Made by a program: the position numbers and the translations under genes | The notes under the pieces: generated by a model | The model's database searches: none | Told to the model about the DNA's origin: nothing | What the model saw: the letters and a program-made list of their open reading frames with translations, nothing else | NCBI RefSeq assembly: GCF_010365105.1 | Contig: NZ_JAAFGZ010000007.1 | Span: forward strand, 124,001-188,000 | Reading direction: 5' to 3' | From: Polaromonas sp. | GTDB lineage: Bacteria > Pseudomonadota > Gammaproteobacteria > Burkholderiales > Burkholderiaceae_C | DNA length: 64,000 bases | Shown here: piece after piece, positions 30,083 to 34,180 of the stretch | How the letters are laid out: each line of letters opens with the position of its first letter | Position numbering within the stretch: the first letter of the stretch is position 1

Positions 30083-31402
30083 ATGACCACCGAATACCTG
30101 AAGAAAGCTACCCCTCCCATCGAGACGATTGACACAGCCACGGGTGAGACCGTTCACCGCATGCTGGCCGAAATCAAGCGCGAAGGGCGAGAGGCCGTGG
30201 AGCGCTATGCACGAGATCTGGATGGTTACACCGGCAAGATCGTGCTCGACGAAAGCGACTTCGCAGCGGCAGCCAAAGCCGTTCCACAAGGCGTACGCGA
30301 CGACATCGCTTTCGCTCACACCCGTGTGCGTGACTTCGCCCACCGCCAACGTGAATCGTTGAGCGAGTTCGAAGTGCAGCTGATGAGTGGCCTGGTGGCC
30401 GGACAAAAGCTGATCCCAGCCAACACGGCCGGCTGCTATGTACCCGGAGGGCGATACGCCCATGCCGCCTCGGCCATCATGAGCGTCTGCACGGCCAAGG
30501 TGGCGGGCGTGCCCAACATCGTGGCCACGTCCCCTGCTCACAAAGAAGCCGGCATGAACCAAGCGATCCTGTACACCATGCAGCTCTGCGGTGCGCACAC
30601 CGTGCTGGCACTGGGCGGCGTGCAAGGGATCGCAGCCATGGCCTACGGGCTGTACACAGCCCAGCCAGCCGACATCATCGTGGGCCCTGGTAACCGTTTC
30701 GTCGCCGAAGCCAAGCGAACGCTGTTCGGCAGCATCGGCATCGATGTGGTTGCGGGCCCCACTGAATCGGCCGTGATCGCCGACCACAACGCCGATGCAG
30801 AAATCGTGGCTGCCGACCTGGCCGGCCAGGCCGAGCACGGACCGGACTCGCCTGTGTGGCTGTACACCACCTCGCGCGAGCTGGGCATGAATGTGATCGA
30901 GATCATGCCGGGTGTGATCGCTGCCCTGCCCGAACCTGCGCGTTCGGCTGCCACGGCCGCGTGGCGCGATTACGGCGAGGTAGTGTGGGCCTCCAGCCGC
31001 GAAGAAATCTGCGAGATCAGTGACCGCTACGCACCCGAGCATCTGCAGGTGCTGGCAGCCGACCTGGACTGGTGGCTGGATCGCCTGACCAACTACGGCT
31101 CGCTGTTCCTCGGCGAAGAAACAACCGTGGCTTACGGCGACAAGTGCGCAGGCCCCAACCACATTTTGCCCACGCGCGGCGCGGCGCGGTATTCCGGCGG
31201 TCTGAGCGTGGGCAAGTTCATCAAAACCGTGACTTACCAGCGCCTGAACCGCGCCGCCAGCCGCGAGGTGGGCCAAGTGGCCGCCCGCATCTCCCGGCTG
31301 GAAGGCATGGAGGGCCATGCGCGCACCGGAGACATTCGACTGAAGAAATATTTCCCGCAAGAGCATTTCGAACTGGGCACGCTGCAAGGCCACCAGCACT
31401 GA
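30083..31402 (+). CDS. hpsN: HpsN-like sulfopropanediol 3-dehydrogenase (histidinol dehydrogenase fold)
   Basis: HpsN oxidises 2,3-dihydroxypropane-1-sulfonate (DHPS) with NAD to 3-sulfolactate in two steps. The protein has 439 residues. Residues [10 protein letters not shown] at the start, [47 protein letters not shown]-like residues and [15 protein letters not shown] match HpsN as I remember it. Zn and catalytic residues of the fold are visible in [10 protein letters not shown] and [10 protein letters not shown]. No his genes are nearby, and the sulfonate setting argues against HisD. The start ATGACCACC was chosen over longer frames because it begins at YLKK and lies within the gap to the divergent MocR gene. 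It is followed after 1 bp by an aminotransferase gene. Confidence 0.8.
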
Positions 31403-31403
31403 C

Positions 31404-32663
31404 ATGAACACTGCCAACACCCCCACCCTCGCAGCTGACGGCCTCTGGTTCGGCAAAGACCTGAGTCAGTCCGAGCCCATCCCTGAAGCGGCCATTGAAC
31501 AGGCGGTAGCGCTCATGCGCAGCGGCCGACTGCATCGCTACGGCGAACAAGGCGCTGGCACGCCCGAGCCCTCGTTGCTGGAGCAGGAATATGCTGCCTA
31601 TGTGGGCAGCAAATACTGTGTGGCAGTGAACTCTTGCGGTGCCGCCATGTTTCTCGCACTCAAGGCGCTCGGCGTGAAACCGGGCGACAAAGTGCTGACC
31701 AGCAGCTTCACGCTGGCCCCCGTGCCAGGCGCCATCGCCCACGCGTGTGCATCAGCGGTTTTGGTCGAGACGCGGGATGACTACACCACCGACCTGCCGG
31801 ACCTGGAGCGCAAGGCGGCCACCATCGGCGCCAAGGTCTTTCTGCTTTCGCACATGCGGGGTCACATCACCGATGTGCGCGCGGTGCGCGAGATCTGCGA
31901 ACGCTATGACATCGCGCTGGTCGAGGACTGTGCCCACACCATGGGTGCCCGATGGGACGGTCAACACACCGGGACCTTTGGCCATATCGGTTGCTACAGC
32001 ACCCAGACCTACAAACACATCAATTCCGGCGAAGGCGGTCTGCTGGTTACGGACGACGACGACATCGCCGCCCAGGCCATCCTGATGTCGGGCTGCTACA
32101 TGATGTACGACCAGCACATTCTTCGTCCAGGGCCCGAGGTGTTCGAGCGCTGGCGCTACGTCACACCCAACTTCAGCATGCGCATGTCGAATGTGGCGGC
32201 CGCGTTGCTTCGTCCGCAACTGGCGCTGCTGCCCGAGCGCGGCGAGCGCTGGCGGCGCATCTACGACAACTTGGCCCAGGCGTTCGCCAGCGTGCCCCAT
32301 GTCTCACTGCCGGTGCGCGATGGGCGCGAAGACTTTGTGCCCAGCTCGATCCAATTCTCGCTGGACTTGTCGCCACCACAGATTGAACACTTTCTGATCG
32401 AGTGCGAAACCCGAGGCCTGTACATCAAGTGGTTTGGCTTGCGCGTGCCCACCGCATTTACCAGCCATTTCGAACACTGGCACTACCTGCCGGAGCAAGC
32501 GCCGATGCCGAAGTCCCGGGGCATTCTGCGCCAACTGCTCGACCTGCGAACGCCGCTGTCGTTGACCCCGGAGGACTGCCAGTTGATCGGGCAAATCGTA
32601 CAAAGGGCCGCCACCACCGCAGCCGCCCAACCGCCCGGTGAACTTCCGAAAGACAAGTCATGA
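31404..32663 (+). CDS. DegT/DnrJ/EryC1-type PLP aminotransferase
   Basis: Fold type I aminotransferase with 419 residues. Family features are LHRYGEQGAGTPEPSLLEQEYAAYVG, NSCGAAMFLALKALGVKPGD and VEDCAHTMGARWDGQHTGTFG. The PLP Lys is in CYSTQTYKHINSGEGGLLVT, and the end has FNVMR-like sequence in TPNFSMRMSN. This family usually acts on sugar or small keto substrates. Here the gene starts 1 bp after the HpsN-like stop and its own stop overlaps the next start by 4 bp, so the three proteins are made together. I infer amino transfer to a sulfonated keto acid (for example sulfopyruvate to cysteate), which is untested. Confidence 0.88.
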   Translation: MNTANTPTLAADGLWFGKDLSQSEPIPEAAIEQAVALMRSGRLHRYGEQGAGTPEPSLLEQEYAAYVGSKYCVAVNSCGAAMFLALKALGVKPGDKVLTSSFTLAPVPGAIAHACASAVLVETRDDYTTDLPDLERKAATIGAKVFLLSHMRGHITDVRAVREICERYDIALVEDCAHTMGARWDGQHTGTFGHIGCYSTQTYKHINSGEGGLLVTDDDDIAAQAILMSGCYMMYDQHILRPGPEVFERWRYVTPNFSMRMSNVAAALLRPQLALLPERGERWRRIYDNLAQAFASVPHVSLPVRDGREDFVPSSIQFSLDLSPPQIEHFLIECETRGLYIKWFGLRVPTAFTSHFEHWHYLPEQAPMPKSRGILRQLLDLRTPLSLTPEDCQLIGQIVQRAATTAAAQPPGELPKDKS

Positions 32664-34180
32664 ATCCATCTCAACATTCAAGCGTTCCGCCGGAACAAAC
32701 GCTGGACCCCGGTGACTGGAATGCCTTTCGCGCTCAGGCCCACCGCTTGCTCGACGCTGCCGTTGACCGCATGGAAGGCTACCGCGAAGGGCCAGTCTGG
32801 ACGCCGCTGCCGCTCGGGCTCCAGGCCGACTACCAAGTGCCATTGCGCAGCAAAGGCATGGGGCCAGAAGCCATTGAAAGACACTTAACGGCATTGCTGC
32901 CCTACGGCGTGGGCAATACCCACCCACGCTTTTTTGGCTGGGTTCATGGCTCAGGCACACCCGGCAATCTGCTGGCGGACATCACCGCAGCCACGATGAA
33001 TGCCAACCTCGGTGGCCGCGACCACGGCGCAATGTATGTGGAAAAGCAGGTGGTGAACTGGTGCCGAGAGATTTTTCAGTTCCCGGAAACGTCCAGCGGC
33101 CTGATTGTCAGCGGCACCTCGATTGCCACCATCGTCGCATTGAAAACGGCGCGCGATCGCTGCTTTGACTTCAGCAGCCGCAAAACCGGGCTGCAAAAAA
33201 CCGCACTGGGCCAGCTGGTGGGATACACCTCGGCACAAACCCATTCTTGCGTTGCCCGCGCCTTTGACATTCTGGGTCTGGGCTCAGACGCATTGCGCAA
33301 AATTGCGGTCAATGAGCACTTCGAAATCGACACTTACGCACTGCAAACGGCGATCACAGAAGATCGCGCTGCAGGTTTCACGCCCTTTGTCATCGTGGGT
33401 ACCGCTGGCGCCGTGAATGTAGGCGCCATCGACGACCTGGAGACACTGGCAGATATCGCGCAGGCCGAAAAATTGTGGCTGCACATCGACGGTGCGTTTG
33501 GTGCACTGGGCGTGTTGTGCGAACAGCTTCGCCCCCGGTTGACAGGCATCAAACGGGCCGATTCACTGGCTTTTGATTTTCACAAGTGGCTTCATGTCAA
33601 TTACGACGCGGGCTTCATCCTGATGCGCTCCGAAGAGCTGCATCGCCGTACATTTTCCGAGCGGCCCGAATACCTGAAAGGCGCTGAGCGGGGTCTGGCG
33701 GCGGGCAATCCCTGGCCTGTGGAGTACGGTCCGGAGCTTTCCCGCGGATTCCGGGCACTCAAGGTATGGACGCAGCTGGCTGAACATGGCACCGACAAAC
33801 TGGGCGCCCTGATCGCACAAAACTGTGCACAGGCGGCCTACCTGAAAACCCTGGTCGATGACCATCCCCACATGGACATGGTGGCGCCCGTGGCCATGAA
33901 CATCTGTTGTCTGCGCTATCGGGCCCCGGGACAAGATGAGCTGGAGGTGGATCGCCTCAACGACGAGATCGTGGTGCAGTTGCAGGTTCAGGGGCTGGCC
34001 GCGCCCTCCACCACCCTGGTGAATGGCCGGAACGCCATTCGGGTGAACATCACAAACCACCGCACCACGCGTGCCGACATGGACATGCTCATCCTCGAAA
34101 TCGATCGCATTGGCCAAGAACTCATGATCGCGACCAATTGGATAAAAAACAATCCAAAGAGCCTCGCAGATAAACACTGA
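32660..34180 (+). CDS. Group II PLP-dependent decarboxylase (cysteate/aromatic amino acid decarboxylase family)
   Basis: The protein has 506 residues. Group II features are NTHPRFFGWVHGSGTPGNLLAD, GLIVSGTSIATIVALKTAR and TSAQTHSCVARAFDILGLG. WLHIDGAFGA has the PLP-ring Asp, and the Schiff-base Lys is in AFDFHKWLHVNYD. The family includes cysteine sulfinate/cysteate, glutamate and aromatic decarboxylases. In this operon cysteate decarboxylation to taurine would link the upstream aminotransferase to the TauY-like oxidoreductase and Xsc; this is inference. The start overlaps the aminotransferase stop by 4 bp (ATGA). Degraded sequence follows it. Confidence 0.88.
   Translation: MNPSQHSSVPPEQTLDPGDWNAFRAQAHRLLDAAVDRMEGYREGPVWTPLPLGLQADYQVPLRSKGMGPEAIERHLTALLPYGVGNTHPRFFGWVHGSGTPGNLLADITAATMNANLGGRDHGAMYVEKQVVNWCREIFQFPETSSGLIVSGTSIATIVALKTARDRCFDFSSRKTGLQKTALGQLVGYTSAQTHSCVARAFDILGLGSDALRKIAVNEHFEIDTYALQTAITEDRAAGFTPFVIVGTAGAVNVGAIDDLETLADIAQAEKLWLHIDGAFGALGVLCEQLRPRLTGIKRADSLAFDFHKWLHVNYDAGFILMRSEELHRRTFSERPEYLKGAERGLAAGNPWPVEYGPELSRGFRALKVWTQLAEHGTDKLGALIAQNCAQAAYLKTLVDDHPHMDMVAPVAMNICCLRYRAPGQDELEVDRLNDEIVVQLQVQGLAAPSTTLVNGRNAIRVNITNHRTTRADMDMLILEIDRIGQELMIATNWIKNNPKSLADKH

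Follow-up and report, generated by a model that had tools for sequence, protein, structure and literature searches.

An HpsN-DegT-decarboxylase cassette in Polaromonas: a candidate cysteate-producing module linked to taurine catabolism

Introduction

The systems closest to the locus considered here belong to the catabolism of C3-sulfonates and of taurine, and the articles that describe them are cited throughout for particular passages. HpsN, a sulfopropanediol 3-dehydrogenase that converts 2,3-dihydroxypropane-1-sulfonate (DHPS) to sulfolactate, bears a G-R-Y-A/S-H motif; the enzyme of Cupriavidus pinatubonensis (CpHpsN) is inhibited by L-cysteate and has been crystallised with reduced nicotinamide adenine dinucleotide (NADH) and L-cysteate in the active site, in a complex essentially identical to that with R-sulfolactate (PMC11382572). 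In Ruegeria pomeroyi, SPOA0157-0159 are cuyZ, cuyA (encoding L-cysteate sulfo-lyase) and cuyR (PMC4334477). A taurine pathway is described as TauR-TauKLM-TauXY-Xsc-TauZ-Pta (PMC5320631), and TauY is needed in Sinorhizobium (PMC4254191). Here we analyse a 64,000-nucleotide stretch of Polaromonas sp. (assembly GCF_010365105.1, contig NZ_JAAFGZ010000007.1, positions 124,001 to 188,000; hereafter the window), in which an HpsN-like gene is packed with genes for a DegT aminotransferase and a group II decarboxylase, next to a taurine gene set.

From sequence comparison, we propose with about even confidence that the three genes work as a module that makes cysteate and passes it into taurine catabolism, with cysteinolate entering through HpsN and DegT. 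The cassette is most likely a variant of C3-sulfonate catabolism whose start differs from sulfolactate and sulfopyruvate. Genes of this kind lie outside the neighbourhood survey of PMC11382572, because that survey kept solely HpsN genes with hpsO and hpsP nearby.

Results

The cassette and its recurrence

The cassette consists of the following genes:

30083 to 31402, plus strand: HpsN-type dehydrogenase (histidinol dehydrogenase fold), amino-context copy, proposed cysteinolate dehydrogenase (Pfam, PDB comparison, tree)
31404 to 32663, plus strand: DegT/DnrJ/EryC1/StrS aminotransferase, proposed to act on 3-hydroxy-2-oxopropanesulfonate/cysteinolate (Pfam, PDB comparison, alignment)
32660 to 34180, plus strand: group II decarboxylase dependent on pyridoxal phosphate (PLP), proposed to turn cysteate into taurine (Pfam, PDB comparison, tree)

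The tight packing given in a preliminary description of this DNA was reproduced: all three reading frames are open, a gap of 1 bp separates HpsN from DegT, and DegT overlaps the decarboxylase by 4 bp. The Pfam matches are all well over their cut-offs (Histidinol_dh 424.6 bits, DegT_DnrJ_EryC1 187 bits, Pyridoxal_deC 192.8 bits), and the HpsN, DegT and decarboxylase proteins are respectively 96%, 89% and 89% identical to those of Polaromonas sp. CG_9.7.

Related loci (numbered with an L) were found by similarity to DegT, the decarboxylase or HpsN; they are mutually related and their flanks unequal, and their counts do not represent independent events. HpsN loci with context fall into a decarboxylase type (10), a CuyA type (14), an HpsP-linked type (20) and four with neither (L224, L236, L237, L238). 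The first two together are called amino-type here (n=24) and compared with the 20 HpsP-linked loci; the last four stand outside these counts, and L132 has no HpsN.

HpsN and DegT lie beside the decarboxylase in nine of the 80 fetched decarboxylase loci, some of which are short. Seven of these keep the order of the window (L034-L038, L045, L049), and the Halomonas loci L040 and L041 have the order decarboxylase-HpsN-DegT. The ten cassette decarboxylases (the window's and these nine) form one clade among 110 family members (FastTree support 0.93). When the neighbours of the 80 loci and the window were clustered, the largest clusters held up to 14 loci, against 10 loci with DegT, and they are absent from cassette loci except for one in L049. 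The other 71 decarboxylase-family loci (within L039-L113; Hyphomonas, Roseobacter-type and Desulfobacterota) carry neither HpsN nor DegT, and their neighbours vary.

Searched with DegT, plasmids gave 162 matching records, at least 12 of them over most of the query among the matches listed. In ten of the best 11 plasmid loci, HpsN lies no further than about 5 kb away (Pseudomonas MPC6, Ancylobacter, two Paracoccus, Leisingera, Polaromonas P1-6, Ensifer, Shinella and two Mesorhizobium), the exception being Roseovarius W115, a 38% relative; all ten also carry a 'D-cysteine desulfhydrase'-type (CuyA-type) gene. Among 40 DegT loci fetched from genomes, HpsN and CuyA accompany DegT in L179, L189 and L204, L201 has CuyA alone and 36 have neither. 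DegT family members without HpsN occur in many genomes of one family (f95, probably Rhodobacteraceae; L180-L198, L212-L218), where the neighbours by eye are often glmS/glmU-like and a second, more distant DegT paralog is frequent; these contexts were not used as evidence.

The decarboxylase and CuyA replace each other

Together with HpsN, the 24 amino-type loci carry either the decarboxylase (10) or a CuyA-type cysteate sulfo-lyase (14), and DegT lies near HpsN in 23 of them against 0/20 HpsP-linked loci, where racemase, CuyA and decarboxylase were likewise found in none. HpsP occurs in 0/24 amino-type and 20/20 HpsP-linked loci, the latter being labelled by it, so that the free count is that of HpsO (0/24 against 19/20, with annotated C. 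pinatubonensis and Paracoccus genes as queries). ComDE and hydroxy-acid oxidase (0/24 against 9/20) and SuyB (0/24 against 4/20) follow the same division. Each set has a single ComC-like protein, that of the amino-type set (L245) in a separate operon, and SlcC appears in none of the 24 or the 20 stretches, its absence therefore saying little.

The CuyA assignment goes back to the protein of Pseudomonas sp. MPC6, used as query, which is 70.5% identical to the product of a gene on the R. pomeroyi megaplasmid, flanked by genes for a LysR protein and a PF03601-type exporter and matched to cuyA by gene order (cuyR-A-Z) and name. The exchange is seen most closely in Polaromonas P1-6, whose HpsN and DegT are 82.7% and 75.3% identical to those of the window and which has a broken CuyA in place of the decarboxylase; in both the HpsN and the DegT tree it sits inside the Betaproteobacterial decarboxylase clade. 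The DegT tree requires three changes for each of the two labels, decarboxylase and CuyA, at least two of them forced by strong branches. Since the decarboxylase and CuyA, which may share cysteate as substrate, replace each other behind the HpsN-DegT pair, this pair most likely delivers cysteate. The window would then have cysteate as junction in common with the CuyRAZ system of R. pomeroyi, whose CuyA recurs in the 14 sister loci, but with CuyA exchanged for the decarboxylase and the taurine/Xsc route; the Polaromonas genome itself has no CuyA match at E 1e-30.

A racemase gene is present in 13 of the 14 CuyA-type loci, against 0/10 decarboxylase loci (Fisher p 5.6e-6, ignoring relatedness; PF01177 confirmed in two), and a PF03601-type exporter in 7/14. 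In addition, a Ruegeria sp. SCSIO 43209 plasmid (L240, 4248-7275) has a CuyA-racemase-HpsN operon, the amino type in minimal form, and no DegT in the stretch. As these three genes stand without DegT, the operon favours a substrate in which the nitrogen is already present; it is one case, from four HpsN plasmid loci viewed, and is not among the plasmid DegT matches listed (20 of 162).

It might be argued that the window HpsN is a mere second DHPS dehydrogenase, that DegT and the decarboxylase act on something unrelated and that the packing is coincidental. The intact HpsN signature agrees with this. However, the association persists across Betaproteobacteria, Halomonas, Pseudomonas and Alphaproteobacteria, where either of two enzymes takes the third place, and the context labels cluster strongly on the HpsN and DegT trees: on the HpsN tree (49 rows, in which the program flags long branches) each label requires two changes, and about 15 after shuffling. 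We therefore regard coincidence as very improbable.

A probable route from cysteate to taurine and sulfite

The window contains a taurine dissimilation set, in which Xsc exceeds its curated cut-off and a TauY-like enzyme, Pta and an exporter are present; the tau labels are based on homology and synteny:

20731 to 21834, minus strand: PF03601 exporter family, TauZ/CuyZ-like (Pfam, locus comparison)
21777 to 22847, minus strand: phosphate acetyltransferase Pta, with an uncertain start of the reading frame (profile match)
22875 to 24800, minus strand: sulfoacetaldehyde acetyltransferase Xsc (1032 bits, cut-off 676)
28456 to 29952, minus strand: MocR-type regulator, divergent from the cassette (profile match)
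34797 to 35657, plus strand: TauE/SafE sulfite exporter family (Pfam)
35880 to 37490, plus strand: second MocR-type regulator, TauR-like by position (profile match, synteny)
37523 to 38863, minus strand: large permease (DctM) of a tripartite ATP-independent periplasmic (TRAP) transporter (Pfam)
38885 to 39544, minus strand: TRAP small permease, DctQ (Pfam)
39555 to 40550, minus strand: TRAP substrate-binding protein, DctP (Pfam)
40643 to 41170, minus strand: SnoaL-like protein, TauX-like (synteny with a Cereibacter sphaeroides plasmid)
41251 to 42834, plus strand: flavin (FAD) oxidoreductase, TauY-like (52% identical to the Cereibacter homolog, about 53% to that of a Sinorhizobium meliloti plasmid)

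On the Cereibacter sphaeroides plasmid the order is a gene named PLP-aminotransferase-family protein (called MocR-like here from this name), TRAP genes, an NTF2-like gene, the FAD enzyme (52%), xsc, a PF03601-type exporter and pta, which we read as TauR-TauKLM-TauX-TauY-Xsc-TauZ-Pta. The window thus has the same kinds of genes as this taurine system but adds the three-gene cassette upstream of taurine. Because of this synteny the SnoaL-like protein was taken as TauX-like, and a cupin encoded at 42835-43239 was rejected for that role.

The same association is found at the scale of genomes. Xsc is over the curated cut-off in 10/10 genomes with the decarboxylase cassette against 0/14 controls, one match, cut by a contig end, sitting at the cut-off. 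Several of the ten are metagenome-assembled genomes, in which absences are weak, and more weight falls on MOLA814 (L049, a 1.4-Mb contig) and on the two Halomonas genomes (3.6 and 4.0 Mb). Given Xsc in all ten genomes and the taurine set of the window, the step from cysteate to taurine is well supported, and an end of the pathway through taurine and Xsc is probable. The preliminary description had proposed a route from sulfopyruvate through cysteate and taurine to Xsc; its cysteate/taurine/Xsc end thus gains support, from the CuyA exchange as well as from Xsc and the taurine genes.

The decarboxylase itself has the PLP fold of group II and an invariant catalytic H308-K309 pair in 110 sequences. 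It shares this fold and His-Lys motif with PDB 4obu and human cysteine sulfinate decarboxylase, but the cassette enzymes form a clade of their own from which specificity is not inferable. One could imagine that the substrate of the module is a different aminosulfonate or a sulfur-free acidic amino alcohol, and that cysteate is not the junction. The 71 decarboxylase loci outside the HpsN-DegT context would suit this alternative, as would the location of Xsc, which is on the cassette contig in only 4/10 genomes and on another contig in 6/10. On the other hand, the decarboxylase is exchanged with a cysteate sulfo-lyase homolog, sulfite-type exporters stand alongside many copies, every decarboxylase genome has Xsc, and the sulfonate-binding His126 and Lys353 are kept in HpsN, all of which makes another substrate quite improbable.

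DHPS and sulfolactate have a home elsewhere in the genome

Three Histidinol_dh genes are present in the Polaromonas genome: HisD on contig 63, an orthodox HpsN on contig 11 and the window copy. Since HisD sits within a his operon and the window protein has the sulfonate motif, the latter was rejected as a true histidinol dehydrogenase. The contig 11 HpsN scores 765 bits against PDB 8v35 (578 bits for the window copy) and is adjoined by a short-chain dehydrogenase 69% identical to annotated C. pinatubonensis HpsO and by a medium-chain dehydrogenase whose best PDB match, at 296 bits, is the zinc alcohol dehydrogenase 8wwd, which we take to be the HpsP structure of PMC11131964. Contig 27 encodes a SuyB-type protein (PF04295 and PF20629; the second UxaA-family gene after hpsNOP in C. 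pinatubonensis matches it at 80% identity), an SlcC-like 2-hydroxyacid dehydrogenase, a ComC-like Ldh_2 protein and a PF03601 exporter; a small reading frame before SuyB, taken for SuyA, has no Pfam match. With HpsN-HpsO-HpsP on contig 11 and the SuyB set on contig 27, DHPS and sulfolactate are already provided for, and because this canonical set lies elsewhere the window HpsN is a divergent second copy.

The preliminary description had placed the sulfolactate dehydrogenases, sulfolyase and sulfopyruvate decarboxylase outside the window, and this holds: tblastn with the SuyB, SlcC, ComC and HpsP of the same genome gave no listed match in it. Of the genes it had named as possibly lying elsewhere (slcC, slcD, comC, suyAB and comDE), suyB and slcC-like and comC-like genes do so. 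ComE was rejected, as no TIGR03846 match of the genome is over the cut-off (best 41 bits, cut-off 221.5; comD was not searched), and the two sub-threshold matches both lie outside the window.

These genes could feed a different route, in which HpsN forms sulfolactate from DHPS, a dehydrogenase encoded elsewhere forms sulfopyruvate, DegT is the sulfopyruvate aminotransferase (Coa) and the decarboxylase yields taurine. This route shares the same cysteate/taurine end, the SlcC-like and ComC-like enzymes could supply its sulfopyruvate, and the window HpsN keeps the DHPS-binding residues except Ser226, which is Thr. PMC11382572 states that Coa has not been identified. A glucose-methanol-choline (GMC) oxidoreductase gene beside two cassettes also fits it; intact GMC and TRAP genes, isethionate-type in our reading, adjoin the cassettes of L038 (12397-17206) and L049 (26-4837), and the window holds a remnant of them:

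34247 to 34821, plus strand: broken N-terminal GMC oxidoreductase stretch fused to a C-terminal TRAP DctM part (sequence comparison)

Its GMC part, which contains stops, is 42% identical over 88 aa to L038, and its DctM part 66% over 111 aa to L049.

Against this route stand the canonical DHPS set elsewhere in the genome and the composition of the related loci: HpsO, HpsP, ComDE and hydroxy-acid oxidase are in 0/24 amino-type stretches, and the single ComC-like protein belongs to another operon. Nor do the cassette genomes share the enzymes that it calls for. Orthologs of the Polaromonas HpsP and SlcC at 81% or above occur in just two of the ten: for HpsP, two genomes have full-length matches at 95-100%, two matches at 33%, one a 67% fragment and five none at E 1e-30; for SlcC, two have 81-100%, three 35-36% and five none at E 1e-40. 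Among the ten, only Polaromonas (G000) and G1113 have an orthodox second HpsN; the extra HpsN in G1116 is near-identical and of the cassette type, and the third histidinol dehydrogenase homologs of G1115 and G1121 are more distant. As HpsO, HpsP, ComDE and SuyB are missing from all 24 loci and DegT, racemase, CuyA and decarboxylase from all 20 HpsP-linked ones, we consider a start from sulfolactate or sulfopyruvate unlikely. The start from DHPS through sulfolactate to sulfopyruvate in the preliminary description is thus not supported; of the ways out that it had offered, a missing step supplied by another locus or a different substrate, the former has candidate enzymes and the latter is the most likely.

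Two types of HpsN and an aminotransferase that would suit an anionic substrate

The best PDB relatives of the window HpsN are 8v35, the sulfopropanediol 3-dehydrogenase (578 bits), and 8wwe (480 bits), histidinol dehydrogenases reaching at most 240 bits, and the G-R-Y-A/S-H motif and the Zn and catalytic residues are kept. Compared with the HpsNs of C. pinatubonensis and R. pomeroyi, it has the fold, the Zn ligands, Glu318/His319, Asp352, Lys353 and the motif in common, but it is about 60% identical, lies on other tree branches and has no HpsO or HpsP partner. Out of 435 columns, just two have disjoint residues in the two types, one of them C-terminal and the other CpHpsN position 321, two after Glu318-His319, which is Q/H in 24/24 amino-type and E/T in 20/20 HpsP-linked proteins. 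Ser226 of CpHpsN is Thr in 24/24 amino-type and 14/20 HpsP-linked proteins. As to the rows outside the counts, L237 and L238 have Q at 321, L236 has H and the amino-type grouping with no partner genes nearby, and L224 has T and groups with the HpsP-linked HpsNs; two Paracoccus amino-type HpsNs branch basally to the HpsP-linked ones of Alphaproteobacteria. A HisD-like GDKC loop is found in some but not all amino-type HpsNs, and no argument is based on it.

The PDB relatives of DegT are mostly ketone aminotransferases of sugars and cyclitols. The PLP lysine K204 is present in 54/54 family members, among which R42, H44, R45, Y46, R152, H205, K342 and W343 are also invariant; six outside relatives have no basic residue at 42, 44, 205 or 342, except for one His at 42. 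The basic residues would fit an anionic substrate, without naming which.

Neighbouring genes of the taurine set

A CobS/CobT-like pair (AAA and VWA) lies in the window at 25722-28437, flanked by the MocR gene and, on the side of xsc, by an IclR gene, and such a pair also adjoins xsc and IclR in L034 and L038. A Lin0512-family protein is encoded at 43626-44045, near the TauY-like gene and the cupin, and L049 has apparently two copies, by sequence likeness, at 19161-19890. In L034 (Polaromonas CG_9.7, 2433-5661) the second MocR gene is interrupted by an insertion whose reading frames are transposase-like by eye.

Discussion

How could the pair of HpsN and DegT produce cysteate? The HpsN copy may act as a cysteinolate dehydrogenase that depends on the oxidised cofactor NAD and, by transferring hydride twice, converts 2-amino-3-hydroxypropanesulfonate into cysteate, much as HisD makes histidine from histidinol. 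DegT would interconvert cysteinolate and 3-hydroxy-2-oxopropanesulfonate in a HisC-like manner, such that the ketone and the amine could both enter. Cysteate would then be decarboxylated to taurine and CO2, and a TauXY-like dehydrogenase, Xsc and Pta would lead from taurine through sulfoacetaldehyde to sulfite and acetyl-CoA, steps that the comparisons support; the TauE and PF03601 proteins would export the sulfite. The logic proposed is that of HisC and HisD in histidine synthesis, where a ketone becomes an amine and the amino alcohol then an amino acid on a histidinol dehydrogenase fold, but here the aminotransferase is of the DegT type and not class I, the side group is a sulfonate, and the likeness is one of working only.

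Since only a four-electron dehydrogenase and an aminotransferase precede cysteate, a gap-free route exists for cysteinolate (HpsN alone) and for the ketone (DegT, then HpsN). DHPS would need an extra oxidation, either at C2 or of sulfolactate, and no known enzyme for either is in the 24 stretches. Cysteinolate or its hydroxyketone is thus a plausible entry compound, if a shade short of an even chance. Cysteinolic acid is abundant in microalgae, can exceed dimethylsulfoniopropionate in algal cells and may be consumed by bacteria, as mentioned in PMC8703288, and 3-hydroxy-2-oxopropanesulfonate is reported in DHPS-producing diatoms and coccolithophores in the relevant passage of PMC11131964. Among the open-licence PMC articles listed by searches, no title or displayed abstract mentions an HpsN-DegT-decarboxylase cassette or an enzyme for cysteinolate degradation.

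Several observations weigh against this proposal of a cysteinolate entry and a taurine end. In the passages cited, CpHpsN was tested on DHPS, sulfolactaldehyde, glycerol phosphate and histidinol, cysteate being just an inhibitor and ligand (PMC11382572). The Zn, catalytic and sulfonate-binding residues of CpHpsN, bar Ser226, are kept in both HpsN types. If cysteinolate were oxidised directly, DegT would be dispensable, and DegT often works without HpsN, which is nearby in only 3/40 of the DegT loci from genomes. The decarboxylase is near no characterised cysteate decarboxylase (best PDB match 239 bits; cysteine sulfinate decarboxylase 131), it occurs together with a CuyA homolog in 2/10 genomes, and Xsc is often on another contig, as noted above. 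The GMC oxidoreductase beside the L038 and L049 cassettes, a remnant in the window, could oxidise a hydroxysulfonate. Stereochemistry is a further difficulty: natural cysteinolic acid is named D while R-DHPS is the form preferred by HpsN, so that the two configurations may not agree, and CuyA is reportedly titled L-cysteate sulfo-lyase in R. pomeroyi and (S)-cysteate sulfolyase in Roseovarius nubinhibens, which leaves the racemase of the CuyA loci unexplained.

Taken as a family, the cassette and its CuyA-ended sisters may, tentatively, represent bacterial catabolism of cysteinolic acid, an osmolyte abundant in phytoplankton: (i), a branch of HpsN would have turned into a cysteinolate dehydrogenase; (ii), DegT would be a cysteinolate/3-hydroxy-2-oxopropanesulfonate aminotransferase; and (iii), cysteate would be ended either by CuyA or by decarboxylation and Xsc. 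If this is true, a C3-aminosulfonate pathway lies concealed behind many 'hisD' and DegT annotations on Pseudomonadota plasmids, HpsN would have to be divided into two types wherever it is counted as a marker of DHPS degradation, and bacteria would have a source of taurine in the decarboxylation of cysteate.

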